From Heterotrichella gracilis (taxonomy: Eukaryota > Sar > Xanthophyceae > Tribonematales > Xanthonemataceae), in assembly GCA_032358255.1 (NCBI GenBank), contig JAULBX010026075.1:1-52452 (forward strand): 52,452 nucleotides of DNA. The letters run 5' to 3'. This document shows positions 331 through 52,168 of this stretch, in pieces. Numbering within the stretch: position 1 is the stretch's first letter; each line of letters opens with the position of its first letter. The position numbers and the translations under genes are program-made. The notes under the pieces were generated by a model. It was given only the letters and a program-made list of their open reading frames with translations. It searched no databases and had not been told where the DNA came from.

Positions 331-1596
331 CTTCACCACCTTGGGCATCTTGATCACCCGGAACACCAGCGTCTCCTCCGAAACCAGGCGCTTAAACTGC
401 ATGATATCCTCGTTCTCACACCCAGACTCAAGGTACACAGTCTTCATGCCCCGCCGGAAGCGCCAGGTGTCGCGCATGCGGCCCCCCGACTTCTCCTTGA
501 GGAACTTGAGTGGGATGAGCCAGCTCTTGCCCGAGGGGTAGTGTAAGAAGTTGACCTCCCCTTCGTTCAGCTGCAGGGCTTCTACCACCATGCCTGCGCC
601 AAAGGTGGTCGGTGGGTGGGTGGAGATGCACGCACTGGAGGTGGAGACACCCGCGTGGTATGTGTTGGAGGAGCGTGGTGGTCCTCAGAATGTTCATAAA
701 CACTACACGCTAAACCCTAAACCCTAGACTTCAGTGGTACGAGCCAGCTGTTGCCCGAGAGGTAGTGCAGGAATTTATACCTCCCCTTCGTTGAGTTGGA
801 GTGCCTCAACGATCATGCCTGCGCCATGGGTGGGGCGTGAGGTGATGGTGCAGGGGACGCAAAACCCTAAACCCTAAACCCTGACCTCTCCACGCCCATT
901 GCCGTTGGCTTGATACCGAACAGCACACACAGACCGTGCACACCAGACCCTACGCTAGGGTCTGCTGTTCGAGGTTTGGGTGTACGGTTTCGTCGTCAAA
1001 CCATCCGCAATGGGCGTGAGAGGTCAGGATTTAGGATTTAGGCTAAGCCACATCCGTACCGCTGGGGCGCAGCTCGCAGTGTCCAAACGCCGATGGCCTT
1101 TTCATGCCATCGATGCACCACGCCACCTGAACCCTAAAACCCTAACCACTAAACCCTACAGCCGTACCACTGGGTCGCAGCTCCCCATGTCCAAGCGCCG
1201 ATGGCTTGATGCGCCACGCCACCTCCATCTCGCTCAGAATCTTCCACCCTCTGTTGGTGGCAGACTCCAAACCCCAAACCCCGGATAAACCCATATGCTG
1301 CAGCGCACCGTTCCTTGCCCAAACCCTAAAACCCTAAAACCCTAAACCCTAAACCCTACGCTCGTACCACTGGGCCGCAGCTCCCCGTGACCGAACGCCG
1401 ATGGCTTGATACGCCACGCCACCTCCATCTCACTCAGAATCTTCCACCCGCTGTTGGTGGCAGACTCCATCATGCTCCTCAGCGAATGCTCGTCCACAGA
1501 AAACAGGCGGTGTTCAAGCTCGATGTTGGCGATGCCCTCGGCAGGCCCCAGGTCTTCGTCAGGGTCGAAATGGTTCCCCTGCCCAGGGTTGGCTTC
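331..1596 (-). CDS. Unrecognised protein, two internal exons of a larger minus-strand gene
   Basis: Two exons are supported. The first in transcript order is 1596-1360, preceded by a CCCACAG acceptor. It encodes an acidic stretch with NHFDPDEDLGPAEGIANIE and then GWKILSEMEVAWRIKPSAFG, ending near a donor GTACGAGC or GTAGGG. The second is 593-331, preceded by GCGCAG and followed by the donor GTGAGCGG. It encodes a Trp-, Lys- and Arg-rich stretch containing MVVEALQLNEGEVNFLHYP and KSWLIPLKFLKEKSGGRMRD. If the first exon ends at 'CCC AGT G', the phase matches the second exon. I do not recognise the family. The start lies further right and the end lies left, possibly outside the window. Partial copies of both exons surround them and are listed separately. 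The reading frames and splice sites are clear; the function is unknown. Confidence 0.6.
728..826 (-). repeat. Echo of the 5' edge of exon 331-593
   Basis: This minus-strand copy of the start of exon 331-593 includes the CAG acceptor and MIVEALQLNEGEV, then reaches an in-frame TAA. It also matches the later GGCAACAGCTGGCTC part. It lies upstream of its parent exon in transcript order. CCCTAAA-type repeats border both sides. Confidence 0.85.
1048..1135 (-). repeat. Second echo of the 3' edge of exon 1360-1596
   Basis: This minus-strand copy covers the exon tail (VAW, then KRPSAFGHCELRPSGT) with an insertion and substitutions that disrupt the central part. It is downstream of the parent exon in transcript order and more diverged than the copy at 1160-1252. 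Confidence 0.75.
1160..1252 (-). repeat. Echo of the 3' edge of exon 1360-1596
   Basis: This minus-strand copy covers the last 36 codons or so of the parent exon, from ESATNRGWKILSEMEVAWRI to the GGTACG end. It is followed by GTAGGGTTTAG, so the donor and the TTTAGGG motif were copied with it. The frame is open across the copy. Confidence 0.85.
1320..1358 (-). repeat. Interstitial telomere-like array
   Basis: Five units of CCCTAAA/CCCTAAAA on the plus strand start directly at the putative donor of the minus-strand exon 1360-1596. On the transcribed sense it is TTTAGGG, directly after a 5' splice site. Confidence 0.93.
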
Positions 1597-1721
1597 CTGT
1601 GGGGTTGGGGTTTAGGGTTTCCGGTTTAGGCCTGGGGCTGCAGATTTGCCAGTATCGGGTTTTAGGTCCAGGGGTTGAGTGAGAAGGGGATTGAGAGAGG
1701 AGGCGCTCCAATGGCCCAGCC

Positions 1722-1836
1722 CCTCGTTGGCAATGTCCTGGGCAGGACCAGAGTCTTCCTCTGAGGTTTCTGGTGCTGCTGTTCCGTTTGCTCCACCCTT
1801 TCCGGGTTGACTTTCTGTGGGGTTTGTGGTTTGAGT
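1722..1836 (-). repeat. Echo of the 5' edge of exon 1360-1596
   Basis: On the minus strand a CCCACAG acceptor is followed by a diverged copy of the exon start; PGKG, EEDSGPAQDIAN and similar stretches match PGQG, DEDLGPAEGIAN. It lies upstream of the parent exon. It could also be a real, older exon. Confidence 0.7.
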
Positions 1837-3461: not shown

Positions 3462-6400
3462 ATGTCCACCGGCAAGAAGAAAGTACGTACCAAAGCGTCG
3501 CAGTTGGAGACGTATACACAAGCTTGCGTAAATTGTTTGATAATAGGCTCAAAAACACACACTGCCTAGAGTCACCGTCAGCCCTGCTGTTTCAAGATGC
3601 CACATGCATGCATATGCATCCCATGCTGCCTGCCTCGCCCAGTTCCCCGTTGTGCTTCCACCTACAACCACCCACTGACACGCGTGCCATGTACCGCAGA
3701 AGTTTAATATTGAGCCCTTCAAACACCCTGTTAAGCTGGACCCAAACTATGCAGGTATGGGCCCATCCCTGTCTCCAATGCGCATGTTGTGCACTCCTGT
3801 TGTCTGAAACCGGTGTTCACGCAAAACCTGCTGCTGCAGAGAAAACGTGGAAGCTTCTGGAAGATGCCATACACGAAATCTTCAACCACAACGCCAGTGG
3901 GCTGAGCTTTGAGGAGCTCTACAGGTACTGGTAATTGTGCTTGTGGTGCACTGTCGGGTGGGAGCGGGTGGGTAGCTCTTAACATTGCAGACAACACGGC
4001 TGGTTGGCCACCATGCTTCATAACACTTACGAGAATGCTAGTCAAGCTTTGGGTATTGACTGGGTTTGAGGCATACCCAGACATGGTCACCCGGCTTCAA
4101 AGCTGCACCCAGATGCTTTTGGTGCAAGTTGGTTGCAAGAAGGCTGGTGCCCACAAGTGTGTTTAGAGTTGCACCCAGTGCCACCAGCACAATAATAAAC
4201 TGCTGACACTCACACAGGAATGCCTACAACATGGTCATCAACAAGTGTGGGGACAAGCTATATGCGGGGCTGGTGGGGACTGTCAAGCACCACCTGATTG
4301 ACATTGCGGGCAAGATTGAAGCCGTGCAAGGGGATGGGTTCCTACGGGAGGTGAAGCTGCGTTGGGACAACCACATAAAGTCCATGCAGATGATCCGGGA
4401 CATCCTGATGGTGAGTCGTGTGCATTGCATGCTGGGGCTGCTGCAAGGTGCAGCGCGATGGGGTAATCTCAAGGGGCCAGTATCTAGTTGCACGCTATCA
4501 ACAGTACACTCAGCCCTGCACCATCTTGTAGCACCATTTAACTTACAACACTTCCGAGCGCATAATTGAGGGGTATGTGGCCATTAGATGGACACCGTGC
4601 ATGTGGGTGAAACTCACACACTGGCCATGGCCGTGCAGTACGCTGACCGGACGTACATCAAGGCCGCCAACAAGACCCCGGTGCACCAGCTAGGCTTGGA
4701 TCTGTGGCGGGACGTGGTGGTGCGCAACAAGAAGATACACGTGAGGCTGCTGGCCATACTGCTGGAGTCCATACAGCGCGAGCGAAGCGGGGAGCTGATC
4801 GAGAGAGGCCTTATGAAGTCAACCACCACGGTGCGGGAGCGTGTGTGGCATCCTTGTGGGGTAGCTGGTTACAGGGGTACCAGCAGTCTGCCCTCCGTCT
4901 GCCCTCATGCCTTGCGTCAACCCGCCCTGCTGATACCTTATACCGCACTTGCTTGGCACTGCTGCCCACACTGACACATACCATACACCATGCACCGAAT
5001 TCTAGGGGAGCCTAACCGTGGCTTGGGTTGGTGCAGATGCTGATGGACCTTGGCCAAACCGTGTACTGCGACGACTTTGAGCAGCACTACCTGGCAAAAG
5101 CCTCAGAGTTCTACCAGGTGAGGAAGGGTTTATGTTAGGGCTCCACCAGGCTATTGTTGACCAGGTAGCCAGTCACTGAGCAGTACAGGCGGTCGCTGCA
5201 GGCAACCCCGCTGCAGGCAGGGGGGTAACGGGTGTAAGTTTAGGGTACAGGGTACAGGGTTTAGGGCTCTGCCAGGCTTTTGTTGACAAGGTCTTGTGGT
5301 GGGCCCTGCCAGAGCCTGCTGCCAAGCCATGCAGGGGTTGGGATCCCCCTGTTTCAAAACCTTTCTACCAGTGCCAAATAAACTCACTGACTAGCAGCAG
5401 CACTGCTACTGGCCAGGCCCACGTGTGTATCACTGTTGAAAGCCCTAAACTTGACCCTCAGGCCAAGGCTCAGGAGTCAACCCTAGTTTCTGACCCCTAC
5501 ACCCCAACCCTTGCCCCTCAAGCTGAAGCCCAGGAGTTCAACAGCACCACTGTGTGCCTCGAGTACCTCAAGGAGCCTGAGCAGTTGGGTACCCCAGGCG
5601 TCACTGACCCTCAACCCTAGTCTCGAAACCCTAAACCTGAATCGCGCCCTATTGCTTTAGGGTATCCCAGGCCCCTAAACCCTAGTCTAAACCCTACACC
5701 TGACACTTATCAAACCCTTTTGCAGGCTGAGGCGCAGGAGTTCATCAGCACCACCGTGTGCCCCGAGTACCTCAAGAAGGCTGAGCGGCGGCTGGCAGAG
5801 GAGTCTGAGCGTGTGAAGAGCTACCTGGACCCATCCACGGAGCACAAGATCACGCGCGTGGTGGAGGACGAGATGGTGCACAAGCAGGTGGGAAGCAGAC
5901 ATGGCGTACATGGTGGCCTTAAGCCTCTCGCACGCCTGTTCACATGAGGAACATTGTGGCATGTAACCTATAATTCAAAAACCCCAAACCCTAAACGTGA
6001 TTGCTCCTCTTGCAGATGCACAGGCTTGTTGACATGGAGAACAGTGGTCTGGTCCACCTGCTGCACCCAAAACCCTAACTCCCAAACCCTAAAACCTAAA
6101 CTCCATTGCCCGCCCCGCAGATGCGCACGCTTGTGGACATGGAGAACAGCGGCCTGGTCCACCTGCTGCACCACGACAAGTACGATGACCTGCACCGTAT
6201 GTACCTGCTGCTCAAGCGGGTGGATGGGGGCCTGGACCTGGCCAAGGAGGTGATGAGCACACACCTCAAGGACATGGGCAAGCAGCTGGTGCAGGTACGG
6301 GGCCAAAATTGGCAGTTTGGAGTTGAGCTTGTAGATCATCTACCGTGCTGAAGAGATGTCCATGTATACCCTATCGATATTGATGTTTGAACTGTACTGT

Positions 6401-9400
6401 GATGGCGGCCTCCTGGTCGGGTGTTGCACCCTGAGCGCACCAAGAAACTTATGGGACTTGTTAACCCTCAAGTGTCCGTTTAAATGATGCTACGTAATAA
6501 GTCGGCAAATTGCAAACTTTGGGTATGATTATCTAGGACCTTGAAAGGCAACCTCTGTAAGGGATGTGCGCTGATGTTTGTATCATATTCCTGTGCAGGA
6601 TCCTGAGCGCACCAAGGACCCTGTGGACTTTGTGCAGCGCCTGCTCGAGGTGAAGGACAAGTACGACAGGATCATTGCACAGTCATTAACCAATGACAAG
6701 GCCTTCCAGAACACGCTCAACCAGGTAGGGCCGCCATGGGCCGTAGTGCGGCGGAATAATGCCAACTTCATGGTGTCTCCTGTATCAATGTGGTGCAAAT
6801 GCCCCCTTGCAAACAACTATGGATGGGAATCACAAAGCTGCCAACTGACGAGAGATCACTTCGTGGTGTGTGGGGCACTGCCTTTCAACCATGTAGAGCC
6901 TGCCTGCTGTTTCTTTGCCCTGCCTATTTTGCGTTTCAGTGCAACAGCCTGCCTGCGCCTGCATGCCTGACAGCAGCCTCCCCTGGTGCTCCGCAGGCAT
7001 TTGAGTTCTTCATCAACCTGAACCAGCGGTCACCCGAGTACATCTCCCTGTTCATGGACGACAAGCTGCGCAAGGGGCTTAAGGTGGGGCAAATGCACAG
7101 ACACACCCCTGTTTGCCGCCTGCTCTTAGCCATGCGTGGCCAATGCAGAATGCTGCACTGCCCAGGCTGTGTACCCTATCCAGTTGGGTAGTTACATGCA
7201 TTTTTAGATATGCATGTAATGTAATGCAGCTAGATTCGTAGCCAGGCTTGCGCAAGCTTGCCCACTCAGCCGGTGGCCAGGTGGTGTCCATGCATCAAAA
7301 CAAAGTCAGTAGCCAAATACAGTACGCCAGCGCGCTGCGCCCACTGTGCGCCTGCACCTGCCCCACTTACCTGTTGACGCTCTGTGTGCCCCAGGGCATG
7401 ACCGAGGACGATGTGGAAGGGGTGCTGGACAAGGTCATGATGCTTTTCAGGTGAGGCTGATGGCAGAGACTTCCATATATGGGGCTGCTACGTGAAAGCG
7501 GGTTCCAGTGGGTGCAATTCTCCTGGGGCAATAAGCAAATCCAGATAAATGAATAGGGAATATGATTGTGTTTTTCTTCATTATCTGGTGTGAGTAGGTA
7601 TATTTTTACATTATTTGGGTTGCTTTGCTTCGCGTGTATCTCTAAGAGAAGGATGTGTTTGAGGAGTACTACAAACAGCACCTGGCCAAGCGCCTGCCCT
7701 CGAAAAGCGTTAGCATATGTTTTATCCTTTCGTACTCATCGTTTACCATTCCCTACCGCAGGTACCTGCAGGAGAAGGACGTGTTCGAAAAGTACTACAA
7801 GCAGCACCTGGCCAAGCGCCTGCTGTCTGGGCGCACCGCCAGCGACGACGCCGAGCGCGGCCTGCTGGTCAAGCTGAAGACCGAATGCGGGTACCAGTTC
7901 ACCAGCAAGCTGGAGAGCATGTTCACAGACATCAAGACCTCGCAGGAGGCGCTGAAGGAGTTCAAGAAGCACCAGAGCGCGGCGCAGTCCAGCCTGGAGA
8001 TCGACCTGGCGGTGCAGGTGGGTTGGGTTAGTGGGTGCAGTCGGAGACAAGGTGGGCTGTGTAGGTGGTGAAAGAGTAGGACAATTCAATGTGTGCATGC
8101 GGCCTGGAGATTGAGCTGGTAGTGCAGGTAGGTGCAACTTGTTTGTAGATAGTTGCATGCATTCCAGGAGGCGCTGAAGGAGTTCAAGAAGCACCAGAAC
8201 GCGGCGCAGTCCAGCCTGGAGATTGACCTGGCGGTGCAGGTGGGTTGGTTGCGTGGCTGGTAAGATGGTTAAAAGAAAGCCTGGAGATGGAAGAAGTGGG
8301 CTATGCAGGCGTCAGTTGGTGGATTAAGTTATCTGCCATGTATGCATGCAGCCTGGAGATAGATCTGGCTCCCGGCCCATGCAAGCGCCTGCTTAATTGT
8401 CCAGCTATGGCTTTTAATTAGCATTTGTTGCATTTCATTGCCGTTGAATTAATGTGTATGGTGTTGTTTTTGTGACTGTCATGTTTTATATATCTCTTGT
8501 TAAATGCGAATCTGTGCCTCCCAGGTGCTGACCACCGGCTCCTGGCCCACGCAAGCGCCCGCCAAGTGCAACCTGCCCCGCGAGGTGGAGCAGTGCTGTT
8601 CCGAGTTCCAGACCTACTACCTGGCCTCCCACTCTGGCCGCAAGCTGACGTGGCAGACCAACATGGGCAACGCAGACATCAAGGCCACCTTTGGCAACCG
8701 CAAGCACGAGCTGAATGTGTCCACCTACCAGATGTGCATCCTCATGCTGTTCAACGAGGCGGAGCAGCTGACCTATGGCGAGGTGGCGGAGGCCACGGGG
8801 ATACCGGCCGCAGAGCTCAAGCGCAACCTGCAGTCGCTGGCGTGCGTCAAGGTAGGGGGAACCCTAGGTGGAGGGTACCGTATACCTCCACCCTACACCC
8901 TATCGTAATTGTGGTACACCGTGTCAGCATGACAACGGGCATCCTGGCGGTCGAGCTGAGAAGCAATCTGTTGGTGCTGGCGGGTGATAAGCCAGGGAAT
9001 CAATCATCCCAGACCAAGACCGGTGTACAAGCACACAGCCCGTGCACGCCTTCAACAGTGGCCCTGGCTCTGTGCCTACAGCCCGACGCACACGCTAAAA
9101 TTCTACCCTCTACCCAAAAACGCCCACTGCCCATTGCCTGCACCCTACATACCCTAACCAGACACTCTTTTGTGCTCAGGGCAAGAACGTGCTGAAGAAG
9201 GAGCCCATGAGCAAGGACATTGAGGAGGGCGACGCCTTCAGCATCAACGAGGCCTTCCACAGCAAGTTCTACAAGGTGAAGATCGGTACCATCGCTGCGC
9301 AGAAGGAGAGCGAGCCCGAGAAGCAGGAGACGCGGCACAAGGTGGAGGAGGACCGCAAGCCGCAGATAGAAGCGGCGATCGTGCGCATCATGAAGGTGCG

Positions 9401-9932
9401 CGGGGGGGTTAATTACCACTATATGTTCACTTTCTCTTCATTTTTAGGGGGCCAATTTGACCTTGCTGTCTTCAAAAGTCGTTGGGTGGCATAGTATCTG
9501 GGGCATAATTAGTTGATTTTGAGATGCAGCGCCACAGGAGTGGCACAAGGTGGTGGAGGACCAGGGGAGTTCTGGGTGACATTGTGCCCCATCGCAGGTT
9601 TGCATCCCAGCACAGCCATGATAGCAGTCAGCCTTGCACCATCTTTGCCCCACCCAACCCTAAAGACCCTTCGCCTGCCTATCACCATGCGCAGCTCGTG
9701 CTTGAGCACAACCCTAAACCCTATTCTTAACCCTAATGACTCTTCCCCTTCCTTTCCACAGGCGCGGCGCGTGCTTGACCACAACAGCATCGTGACTGAG
9801 GTGACCCGCCAGCTGTCACCCCGCTTCATCCCCAACCCCACCGTCATCAAGAAGCGCATTGAGAGCCTGATTGAGCGCGAGTTCCTGGAGCGGGATCCAA
9901 ACGACCGCAAGCTCTACAGGTACCTGGCGTGA
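3462..9932 (+). CDS. CUL3: Cullin-3, scaffold of a BTB-type CRL3 ubiquitin ligase
   Basis: Fifteen exons: 3462-3482, 3700-3754, 3840-3924, 4218-4410, 4639-4830, 5037-5117, 5726-5887, 6121-6294, 6599-6724, 6997-7083, 7395-7450, 7762-8017, 8525-8851, 9180-9395, 9762-9932. All are GT-AG and close in phase to 733 aa, the usual plant CUL3 length. The N-terminal cullin repeats ([21 protein letters not shown]) bind BTB substrate adaptors in this family. The cullin-homology domain starts near [20 protein letters not shown] and binds RBX1. The C-terminal winged helix carries the NEDD8-acceptor motif IVRIMKARR with Lys677, the last codon of exon 14, and ends in YRYLA. CRL3 ligases ubiquitinate substrates in nucleus and cytosol. 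Several introns contain partial copies of neighbouring exon edges, including a possible 72-nt cassette at 8168-8239. Identity is very sure; individual boundaries are good to a few bases. Confidence 0.96.
5458..5587 (+). repeat. Two echoes of the CUL3 exon 7 5' edge
   Basis: The copy at about 5512-5587 encodes [17 protein letters not shown], against [20 protein letters not shown] in exon 7. A shorter copy sits at 5458-5485 (CTCAG then GCCAAGGCTCAGGAGT). Both precede exon 7 in the same intron. The longer copy has lost its AG acceptor. Confidence 0.9.
6005..6068 (+). repeat. Echo of the CUL3 exon 8 5' edge with acceptor
   Basis: TTGCAG is followed by a copy of the exon 8 start encoding [17 protein letters not shown]. 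The frame then reaches CCC TAA inside a CCCTAAA motif, so use of this acceptor would truncate the protein. It lies about 100 bases upstream of exon 8. Confidence 0.93.
6424..6462 (+). repeat. Short echo of the CUL3 exon 9 5' edge
   Basis: The run CACCCTGAGCGCACCAAG, followed by a diverged ATGGGACTTGTT, matches the exon 9 start (GATCCTGAGCGCACCAAG, then GTGGACTTTGT). It lies upstream of exon 9 in the same intron. Confidence 0.75.
7644..7702 (+). repeat. Echo of the CUL3 exon 12 5' region
   Basis: Encodes [22 protein letters not shown] sequence (GAGAAGGATGTG onward), a close copy of the conserved [18 protein letters not shown] start of exon 12. It lies about 115 bases upstream of that exon and has no clear acceptor of its own. 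Confidence 0.92.
8098..8131 (+). repeat. Short echo of the CUL3 exon 12 3' edge with donor
   Basis: GCGGCCTGGAGATTGAGCTG then GTAGTGCAG and GTAGGTGC copies the exon 12 end and its donor (CTGGAGATCGACCTGGCGGTGCAG followed by GTGGGT). It is downstream of exon 12. Confidence 0.8.
8165..8249 (+). repeat. Near-identical echo of the CUL3 exon 12 3' edge; possible cassette exon
   Basis: About 80 bases match the end of exon 12 with very few substitutions, including the GTGGGTTGG donor. An AG (CATTCCAG) directly precedes GAGGCGCTGAAG. Bases 8168-8239 are therefore 72 nt between AG and GT, exactly 24 codons in the phase of the flanking exons. Inclusion would repeat [10 protein letters not shown] through LAVQ in tandem. 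The low divergence suggests a recent duplication. Confidence 0.93.
8351..8392 (+). repeat. Chimeric echo joining the CUL3 exon 12 end to the exon 13 start
   Basis: GCCTGGAGATAGATCTGGCT matches the exon 12 end; it is directly followed by CCCGGCCCATGCAAGCGCCT, matching TCCTGGCCCACGCAAGCGCC near the exon 13 start. The intervening intron, and about 20 bases of exon sequence at the join, are absent. Confidence 0.7.
8931..8985 (+). repeat. Echo of the CUL3 exon 13 3' edge
   Basis: Translates as [17 protein letters not shown], against [16 protein letters not shown] at the end of exon 13. It lies downstream of exon 13 in the following intron. It is fairly diverged but collinear over about 50 bases. 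Confidence 0.85.
9687..9712 (+). repeat. Short echo of the CUL3 exon 15 5' edge
   Basis: ATGCGCAGCTCGTGCTTGAG, followed by CACAACCC, resembles the exon 15 start (GGCGCGGCGCGTGCTTGACC then ACAACAG). It lies upstream of exon 15 and runs straight into a CCCTAAACCCTA motif. Confidence 0.65.
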
Positions 9933-10723: not shown

Positions 10724-11340
10724 ATGGGAACTGCCCCGCACTGTGGCACGGTAGCCCATACTATTGGTATGCAAGCGCCCAGTGTCGTCGCGTGTTACAG
10801 ACGCAGACCAACCTTTGCAACTATGCAATGCCCAAAGGGAGGGCCTCAGGCTTGTAATTACTGATCTTGCATGCACCTACGGATGAAGTTTGAAACTAAG
10901 TCTTTAAACCTTAGCTTGCAAGGTGCATAGTAAGTTTGCGGGTACCCAACAGACCGAATCCTCATTGACAATTTGAGACTCAAAGAGTACAACCGTTGGC
11001 TGCACAAATGTCAATGCGGAAAGTTTTTATTACAAAGACAGGCTGGATGAGCACTGCGAGCGGGTGACTAAGTTCAAAACGCCAGTGGCGCTGCTGCCAG
11101 CGGCTGAACCCACAGCGTCAACCAAATGCTGCAGTGTTGCTTTCTGACTGCAAATATTCGAGAGGCAAGCTTGTCAGCTACAGCCAACCAATCGCCTGCC
11201 TCTCAGATCTTTGCACCCGGAAAAAAGTGATGCAGCATTTGATGACACTAATGGGTCAGCGCAGCAGCGCAAAATGTCATGACGCTGTGCGGGAAAAAAA
11301 CACGATTGGTGTGTAAACAGCTGCGGGTGATCACCCGCAT

Positions 11341-11480
11341 GCCCCAGCTTGCACACTGGGCCCCTCAGTGTTGGTTTCAGTACGTGTGAGGCAGGGCAGG
11401 GGTGCCCAATCAGATTGAGCATCCTTGCCTGCCACACACCGATCGAAACCAACACTGGGGCCCTGTGTGCATACTGGGGC
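11341..11480. repeat. Long imperfect foldback of about 140 bases
   Basis: The left arm 11341-11405 and right arm 11419-11480 are inverted copies of each other over about 62-65 bases, with a spacer of about 13 bases. Examples of paired segments are GCCCCAGCTTGCACAC with the complement of GTGTGCATACTGGGGC, and AGTGTTGGTTTC with GAAACCAACACT. No target-site duplication is evident at the ends. It could be a small MITE-like element or a precursor-type hairpin RNA. Confidence 0.75.
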
Positions 11481-13045: not shown

Positions 13046-13122
13046 GCCCAACTGCAGGCTCAAGTTGAGTGCAAAAGTGAGGTGCACTGCAAGCTGCAAA
13101 ACGGTGCAACCTTGGTTCTCAT

Positions 13123-38500: not shown

Positions 38501-40861
38501 CCTGCCACTGTGCAGCATCTTGGTGGATGCATTTCTCCACGGGCATCCAAATAGTAAATGCAATTAAATTCCCGTAATGTTTGCTTGCACGTGACTAACT
38601 GATTTTTCCTGGCTGTTCTAGGTGAGCAAGGTGGTCATCCTAACTGTAAATATATAAGATTACAGCAATTTTTCGGGAGAACTTTAATATATCACAGTAT
38701 ATTGAAGTCCTCCTGAATGGCTGCTTACTTGACTAACCCATTACCCATGTTGTTCCAGGTTGTGATCCCTCCCCTGTGCATGTTGCCTGTTAGTAAGTTA
38801 GTTACATGCATTCCAGCAATACAGCCAGATTAGCAGTCAGTCTTGCACAGCTGATTACCCTGGTTGTTCCAGGTGAGCACGGTGGTCACCCTAATTGTAG
38901 TTGTAATTAAATGGGTAGCATTGGTTGCTTGCATGTGATTAAGTAAAAGTTTTGGCTATTTCAGGTGAGCAAGGTGGTCATCCCGCCCCCCCGCCAGGAC
39001 CGGCCCAAGAAGGAGTTTGCCTTTGTGCACTTTGAGGAGCGCACAGGGGTGCTAAGGGCGCTGCAGGCGGCGGAAAAGGGGGAGAAGCCCGAGCTGGAGG
39101 GGAACACGCTGGAGGTGCGTGTAGGGTGTAGGGTTTAAGGTTAAGGGTTTAGTTGGGCATGCGGCGGAAAAGGGGGAGAAGCCGGAGCTGGAGGGGAACA
39201 CGCTGGAGGTGCGCGTAGGGTGTAGGGTTTAAGATGAAGGGTTTAGGGTTTGACTGGTGGGGGGCAAAGGGGGAGAAGCCCGAGCTGGAGGGCAACACGC
39301 TGGAGGTGCGCATGGCAGTCTGTGGCATAGTAATACGGAAAGCTGCTGCTCTTGGAATTGGCTTTCATCCTGTGCTTTACCCTATCCTGGTCTTGTTGGG
39401 TTCAATTGGCGGCAGTATGTTATAGTTAAAAAACAGCCACGCCTTCACCCTTCATTCTTGCTTGAACTAGTTATCTGACACCATTGCTTGTACTAGCTAC
39501 TTGCCTCACATGACGCAAGTAGCTTTGATGTATTGTATGACATGAAACGAAATTGCTTGCCCCTTGCCATGAAAGGGCTTGCCCCCTCTCAGATTAACCC
39601 CCTGTGCAGCAGTCATACCCTTACGTGACCATTTGATCCCTTGCCTCTGTGCAGATCAAGCCCGCCAAGCAGCAGAGCACCCAGGACCGGGAGAGCCGCG
39701 GCGAGGGGGGGCGCGGCGGGCAGGGGGGCAGGGGGCCCAGCCGGGGGGGTGGCATGGGTGCCCCTCGGGGGGGACGTGGTGCCGGTGGCCGGGGGGGTGG
39801 CAGGGGGAGGGGCGGGTATGACGACTACAGCTACGGGGGTGGCGGTGGCGACGGCTACGGTGGCTATGGACAGGTACTGATGGCGGAAATATGGGCATCG
39901 GACATATGCATGCATAGGGCTGTATGCCTGGGGAATGAAATGCTACTAGGTTGTTTATATAATAATACATATCACTGTTTGATGAGTAAATATAGGTATG
40001 ACCTGGGTGCATAGAGATATGTGACATATCATATGTCAACTTGGTGATCCAGCCCGCAAGGGTTATCGCATCCCCTTTAAGTTCAAATCGCTTATGTATG
40101 TAATCATATAAAATTTCTCCCCCTGTGCAGGAGTCCTACTACGACCAGGGCTACGACCAGGGGTACGGGTACGACTACACCAGCTACGCGGGGTACGGCG
40201 GGGGCTACGGGGGCTACGGCGCCACTGGCCTGGTGCCCATGATGCTGCCAAACGGGCAGGTTGGATACGTGCTGTCGGGCGCAACATCCGCCGCAAGGTA
40301 GGGGGAGATGTGGGCGCATGTGGGGAAATCCCTCCTGGTTCCTGCACGCTTGTTTAGGGACAGGGTGCGCATGCGAGTTTCCTATTTTTTTATCGGATTG
40401 TTCTATTATTGACGTATTGAAACTTCCATTTCAATCACTTTAGTTATTTAATGTGTTGGTATTTCCAAACATTGTATACATACTCGGAGTTTTTGTACAT
40501 GAATGGGAGATGTATCTGAATTTGGCTGTTATTGTTGCCTTGCAGGTACGGCGCGAGTGCAGGCGCGGGTGCGGGCGGGCCCATGCGGACGCGTGGCGCT
40601 GCACGGGGCGGTGGGTATGGCGCCAGCGCCGGCGGGGGTCGCGGCGGCGACGCAGGCTATGGCGGCGGTGGTGGCTACTCCGGCGGTGGCGGCGGTGGGT
40701 ACTCTGGCAGCGGCGGGTATGGTGGCGCAGGGGGTGCGCGGGGAGGGGCTGGGGCTTCACGTGGGGGTGGCGCGAGTGGGTATGGTGCGGGGTCGTCAAG
40801 GGGAGGCGCCAGTGGGGCGTATGGCCGGGGGGGCAGCAGCCAGCGCTACAGGCCATACTAG
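35545..40861 (+). CDS. hnRNP Q/R-like RNA-binding protein, three RRMs and a Gly-rich tail
   Basis: Thirteen exons: 35545-35664, 35819-35902, 35990-36057, 36265-36409, 36583-36635, 36827-36920, 37295-37400, 37907-38033, 38245-38395, 38965-39114, 39655-39873, 40131-40297, 40546-40861. They close in phase to 599 aa. Residues 1-105 are acidic, in Glu/Ala repeats. RRM1 (about 112-188) has VFVGGLP and YGFVTFK. RRM2 (about 197-273) has LYLGNIP and GFAFLEFY. RRM3 (about 291-366) has VYVGNLP and FAFVHFE. The tail has RGG boxes followed by YG/GGY repeats, ending SSQRYRPY. This order matches hnRNP Q/R (SYNCRIP) and plant LIF2, which act in mRNA processing or chromatin regulation. Exon 10 is flanked by three upstream and two downstream echoes, and exon 8 by one. 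Confidence 0.93.
37792..37834 (+). repeat. Echo of the hnRNP-like exon 8 5' edge with acceptor
   Basis: GTGGTTCCAG is followed by GCCTGGAGAGCATTGACCTG, then TTGATGTCTAAGGAGAACGA, almost the same as the exon 8 acceptor and start 110 bases downstream. After the match comes TTTAGGGTTTAG, which gives an in-frame stop if this acceptor is used. Confidence 0.96.
38615..38900 (+). repeat. Three acceptor-side echoes of the hnRNP-like exon 10
   Basis: Exon 10 begins TTTCAG, then GTGAGCAAGGTGGTCATCCC. Upstream copies are at about 38622 (TTCTAG, GTGAGCAAGGTGGTCATCCT), 38755 (TTCCAG, GTTGTGATCCCTCCC) and 38870 (TTCCAG, GTGAGCACGGTGGTCACCCT). Each keeps a pyrimidine tract and AG. Note that each copy also begins GTGAGC, which resembles a donor. 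Confidence 0.9.
39158..39312 (+). repeat. Two donor-side echoes of the hnRNP-like exon 10
   Basis: The exon end (GGCGGAAAAGGGGGAGAAGC, then GAGCTGGAGGGGAACACGCT, then GGAG and GTGCGT) is repeated at 39158-39222 with GTGCGCGTAGGG and again at 39256-39312 with GTGCGCATGG. All three keep GT donors; the first two are followed by GTAGGGTTTAAG. Confidence 0.96.
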
Positions 40862-41679: not shown

Positions 41680-42179
41680 GAGTCTGCCTTTGTGCGCTTT
41701 CTTTTTTTCAACTGCCCAATCGGACGCGCAGTGCGATGGTGACTCCCAAAGTCTGACGCGCACGCACTGGCAGGGGCCTAGGGCAGCTTCAAAGCAGATG
41801 AGAAATACTGCGCCCTATGGTGCGTATTTCAGGCTGTCCCCAATAAAGCACTTGCAACATAAATTCCCACGTCTTTCTGTCATGCTGTATCTCGTGCAGT
41901 GCAACTCCTGTGCGCACCATGTTGCCTGGTCATGGTGGTCATGCCCTGATGGTGCACTGTCTAATGTGTTGCAGGCAGGGACAATGTGCGGTACAGCTGA
42001 GCTAATCACAGCACTGCCACCAGCAGACAGCTGCCATCCCTAGTGGGGGCATGGGCTCCTGTGTTGTACACGCCGCAAGGAGCATGCTCCCAAGCGGCAT
42101 CAATCGCTGCACACGTCCAGCCTTGCATGGCAAAGTGGCAAGGCCCCGTGCTGTGCTTGCCCCATGCTGGCCAGCGGGC

Positions 42180-43781
42180 TTAGAAGATGATGTCCTCGCC
42201 ATCCTCCACCGATAGCATGTCTTGTGAAGCCCCAGTGACACCAGCAGCCTGGAGCAAAATAAACGCACAGATAAGTAAGCCCCAGCAGTGAGGCAACGGG
42301 GCGGGAAACATCATCATTTAGGGCTGTGTTTTGACAAAGCCCATCAAAATGCACAGAACGCAATGACGCCACTGGCAGAAAAAAAAGGGGCTCACTCACG
42401 TGGTTCTATGCGGGAGGTGTGAAGGGCGTGAGGAACACAGGGGGGCATTGCAGAACGAGGGGTGAGGCAAGGCAACCCCGAGGTCACCAAAATACTTACG
42501 TGGTTCTTTGCGGTCAATACCGAGCGCGCCGCCTGCGTTGCCTCCGCGTCGCGCTTCTTCTTGCCCTGCACCTTCTTCAGCCGGAAGAACTCCTCGCGCT
42601 CAAGCTCGTCCAGCTCACCCTGCACAAAGCACGATGTAGCTGGTCAACTCGCCATATTCTCGCCATATCCATAAAAGTGTACGTTGCCCTTTGCCGTATT
42701 CTGACAAGGTGTACAAGAGTAAATACCATGAGCGCAGGTAAGTCGCTCCCTTGCAACTACCTCCCTGCCACAGGGCACCCTACATACCTATTGGCCCTCC
42801 CTGCCAACGTTGGGCACGTGCACTGGAGTGGATCAAAGCTACACTACCACAGCTCGGGATCTTACGGGCGGTATGCATGGGTGCGGCACACTCCGATCCA
42901 GTATGGCTTGCACAGGCGCAATAGGTATCTAGGTGTACTGGCTGGTGTTCCCCAGCTTGGGCACCAGCCAATACCCACTACCATGGCGGTTGGTGACCTA
43001 AATACCCTGGGAGATGTGCACAGGTGAAACAGGCAAGGGCCTTACCATGAGACCACCATGCATGCAAACCCCACCTGGCCCCTACCTTGGTGTACTGTAT
43101 GGTGTTCTCCAGCCAGGGACCACCACATTATCCAATGCACTCCACACAGCACCTGTCGACATACTGTGTAGTAACACCAACAGGTGCAGACTCCCATCCT
43201 GTCCTCACCTTGATGTACTGTATGGTGTTCTCAAGCTTGGGCACCACCACGTTGTCCAGCGCGTTCACCCTCCGGTTGGTGACCTTGATGGCGGCATCCA
43301 GGGTCACAAAGGCAGTCTGCAGGGACGCAAGCTCCACCAGCAGCTTGATGGAGTTGATGTACGTCTTCCTGCAGTTCTGGACCTGCTGCCCACCCGCACC
43401 CAGGCCCGTCAGGCCCATCTTCACGTCTGCAGCGCCCTCGGTGATGAGATCAAACTTTGGGATCCTGACACCAGCGATGTTCTCCTCAAGAGCCTTGACC
43501 CGGACTGCAGCCTTGTCTACGTTGTCGATGACGGTGTGTTTGATCCCCTCCCCAGCTGCGTACTTGGCTTCGGTGAGGGCAAATGCTGCTGCCTTCATGG
43601 TGGTGCCCATTTGCTCCTTGGTCTGCACGATGTGCTTCAGGATGGACCTGAACTTGACGGTTAGAGCATCTGCCTTTTTCTTCAGCAGAGCGTGGCCCTT
43701 GACGGCTCCCAGCAGCTTGGACTTCATCACAGCAAGGGTGGTGACTGTGGGAACCACCACGAGCCTGTTTTGGGAAGACAT
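42180..43781 (-). CDS. V-type proton ATPase subunit D
   Basis: Three exons, in transcript order: 43781-43209, 42619-42500, 42248-42180. They close in phase to 253 aa, near the family's usual length. Subunit D forms the central rotor stalk that couples ATP hydrolysis in the V1 head to proton pumping by V0 in vacuolar and endomembranes. The N-terminus MSSQNRLVVVPTVTTLAVMK and the helix around LLKKKADALTVKFR are typical, as are NALDNVVVPKLENTIQYIK and LDELEREEFFRLKKVQGKKK in the C-terminal coiled coil. The end is DMLSVEDGEDIIF. I chose the ATG at 43781; an upstream in-frame ATG adds a Gly-rich stretch not seen in the family. Two echoes of the exon 1 end lie in intron 1. Confidence 0.96.
42928..43140 (-). 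repeat. Two echoes of the V-ATPase D exon 1 3' edge
   Basis: On the plus strand the exon edge is ACCTTGATGTACTGTATGGT, then GTTCTCAAGCTTGGGCACCA. Copies occur at about 43084-43140 (ACCTTGGTGTACTGTATGGT, then GTTCTCCAGCCAGGGACCAC) and about 42928-43005 (TAGGTGTACTGGCTGGTGTT, then CCCAGCTTGGGCACCA and CGGTTGGTGACC). Both are downstream in transcript order. The nearer copy keeps an AAGGTAGG donor. Confidence 0.93.
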
Positions 43782-44401
43782 AGCTCCTCCTCCCTCGCCC
43801 TGATGGGCAGCACAACCCAAAGGGCACGGGCTACCAACACCGGAGGAAGAGGCACACTGTTGAATATATGACTACCAAGCGATAAACTGGCAGCAGGAGG
43901 CGAACAGACCCCCTAACGAAGCATCCTGTTCACTTCGTCACGAAATATGCATGCATTGCAAATGTACCCATATGCCCAACTGGTGTGCAAAGCGATCCGA
44001 CACGACACACACAGGTGGGTGGGTCCTTGCGATGCAGTCACAGGATAAGGTTGGACTGTGATCCTCGCTTTGTAGTCTTTCCCAAAGCGTCCTTCTGACG
44101 AAGAGGTGCGCAAAACCCTAGCCTAAAGGGGCGATTTATAAAATCAGCCTCAAGCGGGGTTGTCCTCCTGGCGCCAATCACTGCACGCGCTGAAAAGCAT
44201 ATGCATCTTGTTTGCTAGATCTGCATATGTTCCACCACTGCTTCAAACTGGCGACATCGTTTTGATCTGCCCTCACTCGCACTGTAAAGGTGCACGCAGC
44301 CATGTGATGCATGCAATGCATTCATATACAGCCAACCAAATTTTTGCCGTATTAGCAGTCGTCTCTACATTTCAACGCGGGAGGGGCACGTAAGGGTGAT
44401 A
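43782..44401. other. Divergent promoter region between V-ATPase D and NUP160
   Basis: The two genes start in opposite directions from this 620-base spacer, which must hold both promoters and 5' UTRs. No other gene is visible. ATGCATGC clusters occur near 43947 and 44310. Confidence 0.5.
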
Positions 44402-47400
44402 ATGGAGACTACAGGAGGTCTCGTTGAGACCCCGTGGTTGGAAGTGGGCACCAGCGGACGTACCTCCCTCACCGGCACCGCTGTCGACCATGCCTTGGCC
44501 TTCGCCACCCACGACGCAGCCACAGCACGCTTCATACCCACGGAAGGCTCATCAGCCCAGCTCGTAGGGTACCAGTTCACCTCTCAAAACCCATCATCGC
44601 TCAAGCTGTTCAGCATCCCCGAAGATGCAGGGGCGGGGTGCAGCCAATTAGACATTGAGTTTTCAGCCAACGTGTTCCCCACAGCCTGTATCACCTCCAG
44701 CGACGCCCAGGGGCACGCCCTATGCTGCCTCACAGACGCCTCTGAAGTGTGGATGCTCAACCTGGACACCCATGAAACCCCCCTCTTGGACCACCTGGCC
44801 GACCAGTCAAACACCACCTGCACCCACATCGCCAGAGCCCTGGACAAGGCAGGCAGCCCCACAGCCCTCTTCACCACCCAGGGCGCCCTTAACATCGGCA
44901 CCGACACCGGCGCAATCCTCAGCATACCACTGGCATCCCTCTCCCATCAAACCCTGGATGGCGGCGCCACGTTGAGAGAAATAGGGTCCACGGTTTCGCG
45001 CCTGATCGGGGGCTTCATGGGCCGTACATCAGCAGCGAAAGTGGTCACCGGGGCTGGCGTGGGGCACCTGCTGGTAGCGCTGCACGACGACAACACCCTT
45101 AGGGTTTGGGACCTCCCCCGGCAGCAGCTGGTGGCCAGGGCCAAGCTGCCGCCCCCCTCCTTGGACCTCATGCCCCACACCCTCCATTGCCACGCCAGTG
45201 GTCCAGACCCCACCACCTTAGACGTACTGGTCCTCTTCCACTCAAGCGGGGCGAGCCAATCAGCGCTGGCGCTCTACCAGGTGGCGCCCTGCTGTGTTCC
45301 TGCTTCCTGCTGTTTATGGTGTAGGGTTTTTTTGTTTAGGGTATCTGATCTAAGGTTTGTTGCTGACCTTGCTCCTGCCCGGTGTGCTGTTGGATCTAGC
45401 AGATTGCTTCATGCCATCTCATCCCCGCTGTCTTCAGTCTTAGACCTTGTTTCTCATTGTGTATCTCTCTCGTTAGGTGTTGCTCCCAGCCAAGGATAGC
45501 GGGGTGGATGCCATGGCGCAGCAGCTGGCGGTGTCCCAAGGGATGGAAGGGGGGCTGGTGGATGCTACGCTGGATGCGGAGGGGAGGGCGGCGTGGCTGG
45601 TGGTGAAGGGGGCGGAGGGGGCTGTGGTGCAGGTGGTGGAGGTGAAGGAGGGGGAGGGGGCGCAACAGCCACCCCCCCGCACCCAGCTGGTTCAACATCC
45701 ACTGGAGCAGGTGCTGGCTGGCAGGGCGCTGCAGGTAAATCCTAAACCACAGAAGCGTGAATCTATAAACCCTTAGCCCTACTGATCTGTAACACCCACT
45801 GGAGCAGGTGCTGGCTGGCAGGGCGCTGCAGGTAAACCCTAAACCCTACAAGCCTTAAATCTTTAAGTCGTCCACATGGTTGTATAGTCAGGTGGTGCAT
45901 GTGGGTCGAATGCATCAATCATCCTAAAATCCTAAACCCTAAAGCCCTGCCCAGGTTGATGTCGTGCATATTCCGGTGGAGTACAAACCAACATTGCTGA
46001 TTGGTAATGGTATGATGAGCTTGAGCCATGACTGCAGCCATTCCTCCCTGCTACAAAGTCACCACAGCTGGCCAGCACCGCACCAACACCCATCCCTCAA
46101 TCCGCCCCCCTCCTCCCCTTCTGCAGGACGAGATGTGGGAGGCCCTCAAGCGCACCACCACCACCACCCCACCCACCACCACCCACCGCCTGGACGCGCT
46201 CCTAGACGCACAACTCGCCCACCTTATCCTCCACAGCATCCCCCCCTCACCACCCGCCCTGCACGCCGCATTGGCCGCTTTCACCCCCCACGCACCCTCA
46301 CCTGAGGGCCTGGAGGGAATGAGCCCCCCGGATCTCGAACAGGCCATTATTTCCACTGTGCACGGTGTGAGCCACTTGGGCCCCGGCACCTCCCGCTTGC
46401 AGCGCTGGAACGTGTTTCTCACGCACTATTACTCCACCTGGAAGGTAAGGACACTGCACAGTGCCACATAGAATGCGCACACGTGTAGAGGGTCACCCGT
46501 GTAGACGGGTGATATAACATGGCCTAATTTGCTCACTTCTCCTTATCTTCCCATCATGCGGGGTTGAAACTGTGGCTACTGTTTCATCAATAGAACGTTT
46601 GTCAATAATTAACAATGGCATCGTTTCACCATGTGAGTCATTGCTATCTTCTCATTCTGGGAGAAGGAAGAAAAACCGCCACATGTTGTCCATCACTGTG
46701 TTTAATGTTCATTGCTGTACTTGCTTATCCTCTGACCGGGCTCGTGCACGCGCCCTTGCCAACAAGGTTGTCCATTAATTTTAATTCGTGTTGATGTAGC
46801 TTAATGAGTTCACCTTATATTCCCATGCAGGAGCTGCACTCCCCCTTGGCGCTAGCCATCCACCCCGCCTCAGCCACACCCCTGCTCATCAGGGGGGGAG
46901 TCCGAGCATCACTCCTGCGTCCCTCACTCCCCCTGGAGCAAACCTCAGACCCAGACTTTTCACCCTTGGCCGGGGCAGTGGCCGAGCTCGAGGGCCTGAT
47001 GCGGGGCATGGGGGGCCCCATGCTGCGCGCGCTGCTGCAGGCGGGGGTGGGGGTTGCGGAGGTGGTGGCAGGTGCTGTGGCGGTGGTGCAGGCGGGGCCG
47101 GTGGGGGGTGTGGGTGGTGGTCAGCAGCGGCTGGTGGGGGCTGCTGAGCAGCGGGAGGTGGATGGCTGGCGGCTGGCCAGGCGAAGGTGGGTGTGCCTGT
47201 GGTTGAGGCAGGTCCCTTTGGCTAATTATTAGTAATAGTTGTTTGTTGTTTGTTGTTCAAATGTGCAGCAAGATAGCCACAATGGCACCCTGCTCCCTAT
47301 GCCCTGCAAACTCCCCCTTGCTCCCTCCCCCCCCCCCCTGTTTTGACCACCAAGCTACATGACATCCAAGTTCTCCTCCCATGTCCTGATTATTCAATTT

Positions 47401-50400: not shown

Positions 50401-52168
50401 TTTAATAATACTCCATTTTTGATCTAGCTGTTTAAAAACTGGGCCATTCTACCCACACTGACTGGAATCCTCCCCCCGCCTCCCCCATTCCGCCTATGTG
50501 TCCCTCCCGTCACCCCTGAACCTGAAACCCAAACCCCGAGCATATGTTCCTAACATACCCTAGCTCCCCTCCCCACCAGTCTGCCTTTGCCCCTTGAGTC
50601 CAGCCCTACGCCATGCACCCTACGCATGTGATCCTAACCTACCCTCCCTTCCCTCCCCCCCAGTCCGCCTACGTGTCCCTCCAGTCCAACCCCATCCACG
50701 AGCGCCAGATTGAGATGCTGCACGCACTCATGGGGGGGATGGCAAGCGCAGGGGACGTCACTACCATATGCAGGCTGCCCTTTGCTGGAAACTGTCAGGT
50801 GCGGGTGTAAAGACCCTGGTTGGGCGCGCTCCATTCACCTTAACTCGCCATCCCCACCCAACCCCTCCTCACACAACATTACCCACCACCCACATGTCCT
50901 CCGCCTGGACCTCCCTCTGCACCTCTCCCCATCATCCCACCTCCCACCACCTCCCACCACCACCACCATCACCACCACCCACCCACCATCTTCCCCACAG
51001 GTCCTGCGCCAGGGCCGCACCGTGACCATCCCCCTGGTGGATGAGGCACTGGCTGCACTCCAGCTCAGGGCTGCCAGCATGGACCTCCACGCGCACCCTC
51101 AGCCCCACGCGGTCATGTACGACTTCTGCCTATCAAGGGGGAACATGCAGGGCGCGGCGGGTGCCATGCTGGCGTATGCGAGGCGGCTGGAGCGGGAGGC
51201 GGGTGGGGGGCGGGAGGCTCTGCAGGCGCGGCGGCACGCGCTTGGTGAGTTGCGGGAGTGATTGTGGTGGTGTGGGTGGTTGAGTTTACTACGGATGCTT
51301 GTGAATGCGTGCCTGTTTCAGGACATTTGTTGCAATTGCCCGAACATACGGGTGTGGATACGCCAGCCAAGTTCCACAGTGCCATTTAAGGCCAGGGAGG
51401 CGTTTCCCCCAGCTGGTGTCCCCGCTTAAAACCTCTCACCATATCTGTTCCCCAGCCCCTTCCCTCCCACTTTTGCTCTTCATTGGCCCGACCATCCCAA
51501 CCATGACCTCCCCTCTAGCCCACCCCTTATGCATCCTTTCCCTTCCCCCCTTGCAGAGGTTGCCATCAACTCCCTCAAACTAGTGGATCCCCAGCACGCA
51601 TGGCTCGAGGACCACTCCCCCCCACCACCACCCACCGCACCACAGCCCTACCTGCCAGCCCCCACCGCACCCGCATCCACACCCACCACGGAGTCGCCCC
51701 CCCGCATCCTGACGGTGTCGGATCTGGAGGGGGAACATGCGCTGGTGCATGCAAGGCTGGTGGTGGCTGAGGCGCTGCCTGAGGGGGGCGGGGTGGGGCA
51801 GGGGGCGGGGGATGTGCTGGAACAGCTTCTCACGCTGGGTAGGTGGCGTAGGGTTTGGATTAGGGTTTTGGAGCAGCTTCTCACACTGGGTGGGTGGCCT
51901 AAAGTTTAGGGTGTAGGGTGACTGCATCAATAAAATTGACCCTAGCCCTTGCCTGCATGGTGCAAAAAAACCCATAAACCCTAAACCCTACTTACTAAAC
52001 CCTATATTCTCCACCCCACAGGCTAGTATGAAGTCACACTAGCCCTTGCCTGCGTGGTGCTGACCGCCCCTTTCCACCCTAAATCCTAACCACTAAACCC
52101 TATCGTAGTATACCCCACACCCCACAGACTGCTATGAGGAGGCGCTGGCTCTTGCCTGGGTGGTTTGA
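44402..52168 (+). CDS. NUP160: Nuclear pore protein NUP160, apparently C-terminally truncated
   Basis: Fourteen exons: 44402-45280, 45477-45734, 46127-46444, 46831-47186, 47423-47750, 48151-48364, 48724-48950, 49296-49407, 49650-49756, 50068-50274, 50664-50798, 51001-51244, 51557-51838, 52128-52168. They close in phase to 1235 aa. NUP160 belongs to the Y-shaped (NUP107-160) scaffold complex of the nuclear pore and has an N-terminal beta-propeller and an alpha-helical solenoid. Here the propeller part includes LLVALHDDNTLRVWDLPRQQ. The solenoid has SAYVSLQSNPIHERQ and YDFCLSRGNMQGAAGAMLAY, which correspond well to plant and animal NUP160. The last frame reads DCYEEALALAWVV and then stops; full-length homologues run about 200 residues further. 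Either exon 14 is an echo and the true exon lies beyond the window, or the 3' end was lost beside the LINE fragment. A possible small exon at 45955 would break phase and was left out. Confidence 0.88.
45783..45836 (+). repeat. Echo of the NUP160 exon 2 3' edge with donor
   Basis: CCACTGGAGCAGGTGCTGGC, then TGGCAGGGCGCTGCAG and GTAAACCCTAAACC repeats the exon 2 end and its donor (GTAAATCCTAAACC) almost exactly, 70 bases downstream. The intron start was copied with the exon edge. Confidence 0.97.
47812..47842 (+). repeat. Short echo of the NUP160 exon 5 3' region
   Basis: GGGGAACGGCTGCAGAGAGA resembles GAGGAACGGCTGCAGGGATA near the exon 5 end. It lies downstream of exon 5, beyond a CCCTAAACCCTAG motif. 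Confidence 0.7.
48360..48442 (+). repeat. GGTGGGTGGTGG minisatellite carrying repeated donor edge
   Basis: The exon 6 end and donor, GGCAG then GTGGGTGGTGG, recurs twice more (about 48407 and 48421) inside a GGTGGGTGGTGG array at the start of the intron. At least three equivalent donor-like sites result. Confidence 0.85.
49087..49140 (+). repeat. Interstitial telomere-like array (TTTAGGG/TTTTAGGG)
   Basis: About seven tandem units mix the 7-base TTTAGGG and 8-base TTTTAGGG forms. It lies in a NUP160 intron, G-rich on the coding strand. It is the longest such array in the window; many one- to three-unit versions sit in other introns. Confidence 0.95.
50485..50600 (+). repeat. Two short echoes of the NUP160 exon 11 5' edge
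   Basis: CCATTCCGCCTATGTGTCCC, then TCCCGTCACCCC (about 50486) and CCACCAGTCTGCCTTTGCCCC (about 50574) resemble the exon 11 acceptor and start (CCCCCAG, then TCCGCCTACGTGTCCCTCCA). Both lie upstream of exon 11. Confidence 0.75.
51866..51893 (+). repeat. Echo of the NUP160 exon 13 3' edge with donor
   Basis: GGAGCAGCTTCTCACACTGG, then GTGGGTGG repeats GGAACAGCTTCTCACGCTGG with its donor GTAGGTGG, about 50 bases downstream. GTTTAGGGTGTAGGG follows. Confidence 0.95.
51940..52064 (+). repeat. Echoes of the NUP160 exon 14 region
   Basis: CACCCCACAG, then GCTAGTATGAAGTCACACTA and GCCCTTGCCTGCGTGGT (52012-52056) is a diverged copy of CACCCCACAG, ACTGCTATGAGGAGGCGCTG, GCTCTTGCCTGGGTGGT at 52118-52164. 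A shorter copy is at about 51943-51963 (CTAGCCCTTGCCTGCATGGT). It cannot be decided which, if any, is the functional exon. Confidence 0.88.

Follow-up and report, generated by a model that had tools for sequence, protein, structure and literature searches.

Why should the introns of ordinary genes carry partial copies of the exon edges that adjoin them? The question is raised by a 52,452-nt stretch of nuclear DNA of the alga Heterotrichella gracilis (contig JAULBX010026075.1, positions 1 to 52,452), the whole of which is referred to here as the window and which belongs to a 68.5-Mb assembly in 903 contigs (GCA_032358255.1). The copies, termed echoes below, are local, direct duplications across exon-intron junctions that decay neutrally and are associated with telomere-like tracts. 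They are probably scars left where breaks straddling the junctions underwent error-prone repair, often with telomere-like filler.

The window was analyzed together with 20 further stretches of the genome (L002-L021, ~200 kb; 252 kb in all) and with four held-out stretches, which were fetched later and excluded from gene-finder training. Gene models were obtained from a self-trained hidden-Markov gene finder seeded with exons read by eye; it predicted 398 exons in the 252 kb, with a donor consensus of AG/GTGAGT and an acceptor consensus of TGCAG/G. In self-comparisons (pairs of at least 34 bits and <1 kb apart, low-complexity pairs excluded), the window contains 41 direct pairs versus no inverted pairs with separate arms, besides seven self-palindromes, and each of three dinucleotide shuffles of the window gave no direct pair. 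The 20 further stretches contain 111 direct and 2 inverted pairs, and the held-out stretches 52 direct (spacing 40-500 bp) and no inverted pairs. Direct pairs are present in 20 of the 24 stretches besides the window. Orientation and proximity are those expected of tandem duplication.

The pairs are placed preferentially at exons. After near-duplicate and short-period pairs were removed, 150 pairs remained in the 252 kb: 111 link an exon to a copy beyond its bounds, 24 have both copies in noncoding sequence, 9 show slight overlap with an exon, and 6 are confined to a single exon. Random repositioning of each pair (300 trials) yields a mean of 57.9 exon/echo pairs (maximum 75) and 62.4 noncoding pairs. 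The predicted junction is reached or crossed in 87 of the 111 exon/echo pairs, and both copies were called as exons in 22. The spacing between exon and echo is two-peaked, at ~100 and ~195 bp (window and L002-L021). Within the window, 34 of the 41 filtered pairs link a predicted exon to an outside copy or to a shorter predicted exon, and these are spread over 8 of the 10 delimited gene regions; the p24-like and protease-like genes yielded no exon/echo pair in the self-comparison. Some of the 34 are doubtful, among them 9334/9542 (21 bp inside an exon), 8102/8214 (echo versus echo), and 39808/40159, probably a glycine-rich coding repeat. A preliminary description of the window, made from its letters alone, had reported such echoes in most multi-exon genes, grading from near-identical to barely recognizable copies. 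Both observations hold: identity ranges from 66 to 100% across sampled and held-out stretches, and the near-identical examples are real (8165-8259, 94%; 29413-29474, 95%; the 39063-39311 array; 45791-45866, 88%).

Two other arrangements were seen. Stretch L025 holds ladders of copies at one place, at 2077-2451 (~5 copies, ~80 bp spacing) and 6298-6794 (~4 copies), which suggests recurrent events at a single site. In L008, a single intron (7964-8580) carries well-preserved echoes of both exon edges with a core of ~208 bp between them.

The preliminary description had also proposed aligning exon ends to their flanking introns, with non-adjacent introns as controls. We ran this comparison with the terminal 60 exon bases at 442 edges, from 221 introns of at least 100 bp whose exons both measure at least 60 bp. 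At a score of at least 36, 45 of the 442 edges (~10%) match the adjoining intron, as compared to 0 of 2,523 controls (far edges 0/313, inverted 0/442, non-adjacent introns 0/1,326, further introns from the same stretch 0/442). Relaxing the score to 32 gives 56/442 versus 1/2,523. The held-out stretches behave alike, with 14 of 78 edges matching and 1 of 522 controls (far edges 1/54, inverted 0/78, non-adjacent introns 0/390). A further claim was that copies of a 5' edge lie only upstream of their exon and copies of a 3' edge only downstream. As a description this stands, since 108 of the 111 pairs in the 252 kb comply and the far-edge controls are nearly empty, but it is weak independent evidence: when these pairs are repositioned by joint shifts, 68% of them comply on average (maximum 90%), so the polarity is mostly geometry. 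One of the three exceptions is an echo called as an exon, and the remaining two lie in L013.

Which copy is the working exon can be read most directly in the Cullin-3 gene. The 12 junctions checked there are gap-free and without insert in 12 of 12 homologues (12 chosen from at least 120); the echoes there therefore lie outside the protein. Mismatches between exon and echo fall on codon positions 1, 2, and 3 at 182/1729, 165/1732, and 365/1726 (10.5%, 9.5%, and 21.1%), the ~1:1:2 ratio expected of a neutral echo and an exon varying mainly at silent sites. A frame-shifting gap is present in 25 of the 111 echoes and an in-frame stop in 9, while 60 of 80 splice dinucleotides aligned to an echo persist (acceptor 23/34, donor 37/46). 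In view of these counts, the echoes do not look protein-coding, nor do they look clearly purged as decoys. The predicted supply of decoy splice sites is borne out by the same dinucleotides, and introns bearing echoes are indeed longer (median 368 bp, n=64) than the others (257.5 bp, n=276).

The focus on exon edges could be a detection effect, with duplications arising everywhere and exon-anchored pairs staying recognizable longer. The exon copy is shielded from substitution and deletion, which by our estimate would lengthen the lifetime of a pair ~2-4 times; the drift of exon parts seen in the codon-position mismatches fits, and edge counts could be inflated by exon calls made ab initio. With telomere-like bases (defined below) masked, edge and noncoding pairs stand at 128:25 overall. 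In the held-out stretches the ratio is 41:11. Against a pure detection effect, it is 43:5 at ≥90% identity, a range in which fading of the signal should have least influence. Random placement gives ~58:62 under slightly different class limits. The low-complexity filter was considered as a cause of the few noncoding pairs and rejected, as the counts are nearly unchanged without it (128 edge, 25 noncoding). Detection accounts for part of the focus on edges. Some junction excess seems to remain beyond what it explains, and we regard detection as the whole explanation as unlikely, though far from negligible.

A feature absent from the preliminary description is the telomere-like sequence between exons and echoes. 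Contigs C70 and C140 start with CCCTAAA arrays, and the telomere repeat was therefore taken to be TTTAGGG; the genome encodes a telomerase RNA-binding domain. Tracts were defined as 10-mers with at most one mismatch to the repeat. They make up 4-5% of the bases in introns, 0.8% in predicted intergenic sequence, and 0.2% in exons (2.6% overall versus 0.6% for the reversed motif). Tracts are most frequent 20-40 bp from donors and acceptors alike; on the acceptor side the CCCTAAA strand alone is common. Their share is 16.4% in exon-echo spacers as compared to 3.1% in intron outside pairs, and is highest in short spacers (30% below 95 bp). Telomere-like sequence, of the same repeat type as the contig-end arrays, lies between exon and echo at 33 of 56 edges (matched intervals: mean 13.3, maximum 23). 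The tracts were also assessed for flanking direct repeats, 227 of 235 having sufficient flank. Direct repeats bracket 61 of 123 tracts <40 bp from an exon, versus 5 of 680 mismatched-flank controls; the counts are 6/26 at 40-100 bp, 11/45 at 100-200 bp, and 2/15 beyond, with 0/13 intergenic and 0/5 in exons. A TTTAGGG array of 7.1 units also occurs at 49088-49139 of the window, within the Nup160-like gene region.

These features are probably best explained by end joining of staggered breaks with fill-in, in the following sequence of events. A staggered break, or two opposite-strand nicks separated by some tens of bases, would leave overhangs at a junction; both overhangs would be filled in and the ends rejoined, doubling the segment between the nicks, with its exon edge and splice site, in direct orientation. 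In many events, additional DNA, often telomere-like (TTTAGGG)n, would be left in the seam. The outer copy would stay the working edge and the inner copy would decay neutrally as an echo that carries a decoy splice site. A duplication crossing a junction may be tolerated, since the inner copy can be spliced out. Each event would add mostly ~70-240 bp to the intron, and recurrence at the same junction would build ladders. We infer that fill-in of a staggered break and telomeric insertion were joined as one event in this alga.

A more specific and rather doubtful version holds that introns grow outward by a telomere-linked ratchet, in which telomerase and CST-Pol alpha handle junction breaks and each event duplicates the edge while adding telomeric repeats that serve splicing. 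The machinery might act there owing to the resemblance of G-rich donors (GTGAGT/GTGGGT) and C-rich acceptors to TTTAGGG/CCCTAAA. CCCTAAA would supply a branch-point-like CTAA and pyrimidines before the acceptor, and the TTTAG-containing strand would be excluded there, as it would act as an early acceptor. Apart from this version, the strand bias near acceptors may well be splicing-selected: CCCTAAA can provide both a branch point and a pyrimidine tract, and TTTAG could be taken as an early acceptor.

Another reading weighed is plain tandem duplication, produced by slippage in replication or by unequal exchange; the spacer would then be decayed intron of the duplicated unit and the telomere-like tracts ordinary intron. 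In a head-to-tail comparison, the intron beside the exon was set against the intron beside the echo. The two resemble each other at 6 of 56 edges at a 1% threshold and at 18 of 53 where 6% are expected, with median scores of 18 versus 14 (p=2e-9). Clear cases are the window pair 5971/6076, where a telomere-like intron part is present in both copies and which looks like a plain tandem duplication, and at least one in each of L003, L011, L013, and L017. Conversely, the intron is unrelated beside echoes of 93-97% identity (L018 8788, window 29413, and L009 8567), and telomere-like sequence is confined to the echo's exon side in 14 cases and to its far side in 3, and is found on both in 16, of 53 (p=0.013). 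Because flanks resemble each other in some cases and not beside well-preserved echoes, and because tracts are more often exon-side than far-side, plain duplications and filler duplications both seem present; plain duplication is unlikely to account for the echoes as a whole. The preliminary proposal of tandem duplication across junctions is thus upheld in that the copies are local, direct, of many ages, and found in 20 of 24 stretches, but the simple head-to-tail form can be demonstrated for only 6/56 (strict threshold) to 18/53 (looser threshold), the remaining spacers being either unrelated or too far diverged.

Several points weigh against repair of junction-spanning breaks with filler. At least 6/56 and perhaps 18/53 pairs look like plain tandem duplication without filler, and 4 of the 24 stretches, all among the first 20, lack any pair. 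Tracts are absent from 23 of the 56 spacers, and spacers of at least 95 bp are only 6.5% telomere-like; telomeric filler therefore explains part of the spacers. The tracts could instead be old intron parts that caused the breaks. The strand order expected from telomerase (G strand by the left copy, C strand by the right) is not clearly seen: at 3' edges there is a slight trend in the predicted direction, confounded by splicing constraints, and at 5' edges G-strand tracts are few and closer to the exon than to the echo, contrary to prediction. The best-preserved pairs have an intron part shorter than the exon part, which would not be expected of duplications placed uniformly, and an event at a 5' edge is assumed to yield a new outer acceptor that beats the old one. 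The gene models are ab initio, with CUL3 alone verified against homologues, and the events are all drawn from a single genome.

Less probable than plain duplication is template copying into a break within the intron, in which a nearby exon edge is captured by synthesis and pasted in. Excerpts of PMC2671141 report 824 closely linked human duplications of up to 619 bp, an illustrated one with filler DNA, which speaks for such copying. Copying of this kind can also yield inverted copies, and one inverted exon is described there, as compared to 111 direct and 2 inverted pairs here; likewise, only 4 partial exon/intron donors are given among the 824, as compared to 128 edge versus 25 noncoding pairs here.

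Introners or other transposable elements with target-site duplications would explain direct repeats bracketing an insert, and introners are known in green algae (excerpts of PMC9860276). The repeats described there measure 3-9 bp, as compared to duplications of tens of base pairs here. Of two spacers searched against the 68.5-Mb genome (29338-29412 and 5583-5722), neither matched anywhere but at its own locus, a non-telomeric match to another intron was found in only 27 of 340 introns, several of them neighbors, and 310 of 349 intron-intron hits are telomere-like. A family with many near-identical copies at different introns is the hallmark of introners and did not emerge from the genome-wide search with two spacers or from the comparison of 340 introns with each other, which leaves this origin very improbable. 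The same holds for echoes as selected alternative exons. Although both copies are called as exons in 22 of the 111 pairs and GT or AG is kept in most aligned echoes, the change rate at codon positions 1 and 2 reaches half that at position 3, much more than two coding copies would allow; frame-shifting gaps (25/111) and in-frame stops (9/111) occur, and 0 of 12 Cullin-3 homologues carry an insert at the 12 junctions. Mutually exclusive exons, considered separately, would show coding constraint on both copies, and this was not found. An assembly or sequencing artefact, for which the 903 contigs might speak, is hardly credible given copies differing by 0-34%, the codon-position signature, and occurrence in 20 of 24 independent stretches.

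The preliminary description had pointed to tandem duplication as a route to new introns. Intron gain by tandem duplication of AGGT would have a recognizable geometry, with one repeat lying across the donor of exon A and its partner across the acceptor of exon B, which follows. Of the 150 pairs, 12 are arranged in this way; the ones inspected manually are echoes that the gene finder took for exons, and no clear case of gain was obtained among the part of the 12 that was resolved.

The echoes of the window are collected in Table 1. Cullin-3, DNA topoisomerase I (TOP1), and V-ATPase D were identified by domain match. The kinase gene encodes PAS domains and a kinase domain, and we take its product to be phototropin-like; the GTPase is presumably NOG2/GNL2-like. 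The Nup160-like gene has a weak Nup120/160 match, under the Pfam cut-off, and the RRM and p24-like proteins were assigned by inspecting translations alone. Among the matches listed, the best identities are 73% for V-ATPase D and 72% for Cullin-3, and the nearest named relatives of both are green algae, such as Coccomyxa, Elliptochloris, and Myrmecia. A search of the assembly for a plastid RuBisCO gene yielded no match.

Table 1. Echoes in the window and the exon edges that they match, by gene.
Gene	Span	Strand	Exon edge	Echo	Remarks
	504..833	-	5' edge, exon copy 504-608	upstream 728-833 (81%)	spacer end CTAAACCCTAAACCCTAG
CUL3	5519..5786	+	5' edge of 5726-5887	upstream 5519-5582	telomere-like spacer
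CUL3	5971..6172	+	5' edge of 6121-6294	upstream 5971-6067	spacing 105 bp
CUL3	7646..7823	+	5' edge of 7762-8017	upstream 7646-7697 (90%)	
CUL3	7943..8368	+	3' edge of 7762-8017	downstream 8102-8133, 8165-8259 (94%, GT donor), 8338-8368	8338-8368 matches echo region 8089-8119
CUL3	8367..8562	+	5' edge of 8525-8851	upstream 8367-8392	weak
CUL3	9656..9785	+	5' edge of last exon (start 9762)	upstream 9656-9712	spacer CCTAAACCCTATTCTT
TOP1	14978..15163	+	5' edge of 15135-15359	upstream 14978-15021	
TOP1	16115..16306	+	3' edge of 16012-16155	downstream 16235-16306	
TOP1	18175..18338	+	3' edge of 18039-18214	downstream 18282-18338	spacer partly telomere-like
Phototropin-like kinase	23895..24720	+	3' edge of 23776-23978	downstream 24517-24582, 24662-24720	two old echoes
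Phototropin-like kinase	24727..24965	+	5' edge of 24901-25122	upstream 24727-24785	
NOG2/GNL2-like GTPase	29276..29474	-	5' edge of 29169-29321	upstream 29413-29474 (95%)	unrelated 75-bp spacer
NOG2/GNL2-like GTPase	29863..30078	-	5' edge of 29720-29937	upstream 30019-30078	
NOG2/GNL2-like GTPase	30282..30607	-	5' edge of 30150-30389	upstream 30470-30607	
NOG2/GNL2-like GTPase	31858..32135	-	5' edge of 31781-31910	upstream 31967-32019, 32051-32135	
RRM protein	37779..37947	+	5' edge of 37907-38033	upstream 37779-37837 (92%)	spacer with TTTAGGG
RRM protein	38541..38983	+	5' edge of 38965-39114	upstream 38541-38640, 38861-38891	
RRM protein	39063..39311	+	3' edge	array	2.6 units x 94 bp (exon 3' edge and telomere-like intron)
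V-ATPase D	42926..43258	-	3' edge of 43209-43781	downstream 43063-43134, 42934-42966	
Nup160-like	45694..45866	+	3' edge of 45477-45734	downstream 45791-45866 (88%)	
Nup160-like	50469..50693	+	5' edge of 50664-50798	upstream 50469-50516, 50540-50606	

Other observations concern the sequences themselves. Four long near-palindromes in the window (866-1042, 11088-11270, 11341-11480, and 24288-24450) could be hairpin-forming sequence or remnants of small inverted-repeat elements, and a GGTGTG repeat of 12.7 units occupies the very start (1-76). Stretch L015 has a GC content of 39%, versus 49.5-59% in the remaining sampled stretches, and contains no local direct pair <1 kb apart.

Intron length is usually attributed to transposons and drift. 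Here, short-range, repair-like duplication appears to lengthen the introns of ordinary genes from their ends, with graded scars at ~10% of sampled edges. If confirmed, the echoes would directly record how breaks are repaired at splice junctions, form a natural source of decoy splice sites, and allow a test of whether telomere enzymes work at internal breaks outside mammals. If telomere-linked insertion is real, spacers should track each species' own repeat, green algae having TTTAGGG or TTTTAGGG telomeres. Short tandem duplications from staggered-break end joining have reportedly been studied in plants by Schiml et al. (2016).

Among the open-licence papers listed, none was recognized by title or abstract as reporting copies of exon edges this dense or linked to telomeric sequence. 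The nearest parts of this literature are compared here from excerpts of each paper. In PMC8355091, 3' overhangs as short as 43 bp give rise to tandem duplications via fill-in by CST and Pol alpha-primase. The echoes resemble these products in being direct, local, and tens of base pairs long, and the enzymes involved there also serve telomeres; unlike that system, the echoes are evolutionary scars, known from sequence alone, concentrated at splice junctions and often with telomere-like spacers. PMC2246262 describes telomeric repeats inserted at double-strand breaks. The likeness lies in short telomeric DNA inserted internally, in some cases with a duplicated target; in those mammals only a minority of loci carry the duplication (6 of 130 in rodents, 4 of 25 in primates), whereas 61 of 123 exon-proximal tracts are bracketed by direct repeats here. 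The captured proximal DNA of PMC2671141, and the 'doublets' cited there, share short, closely linked duplications, sometimes with filler, and differ in the inverted case and the few donors crossing exon edges in human, as compared to nearly all direct pairs here. The nearest single case is that of potato RdRp (PMC4974935), where tandem duplication across an intron-exon boundary in a plant gene created a new intron; in our data existing introns appear to lengthen, and the CUL3 protein is without insert at the 12 junctions checked. The duplications are of a known kind, and it is their density and their link to telomeric sequence that are notable.

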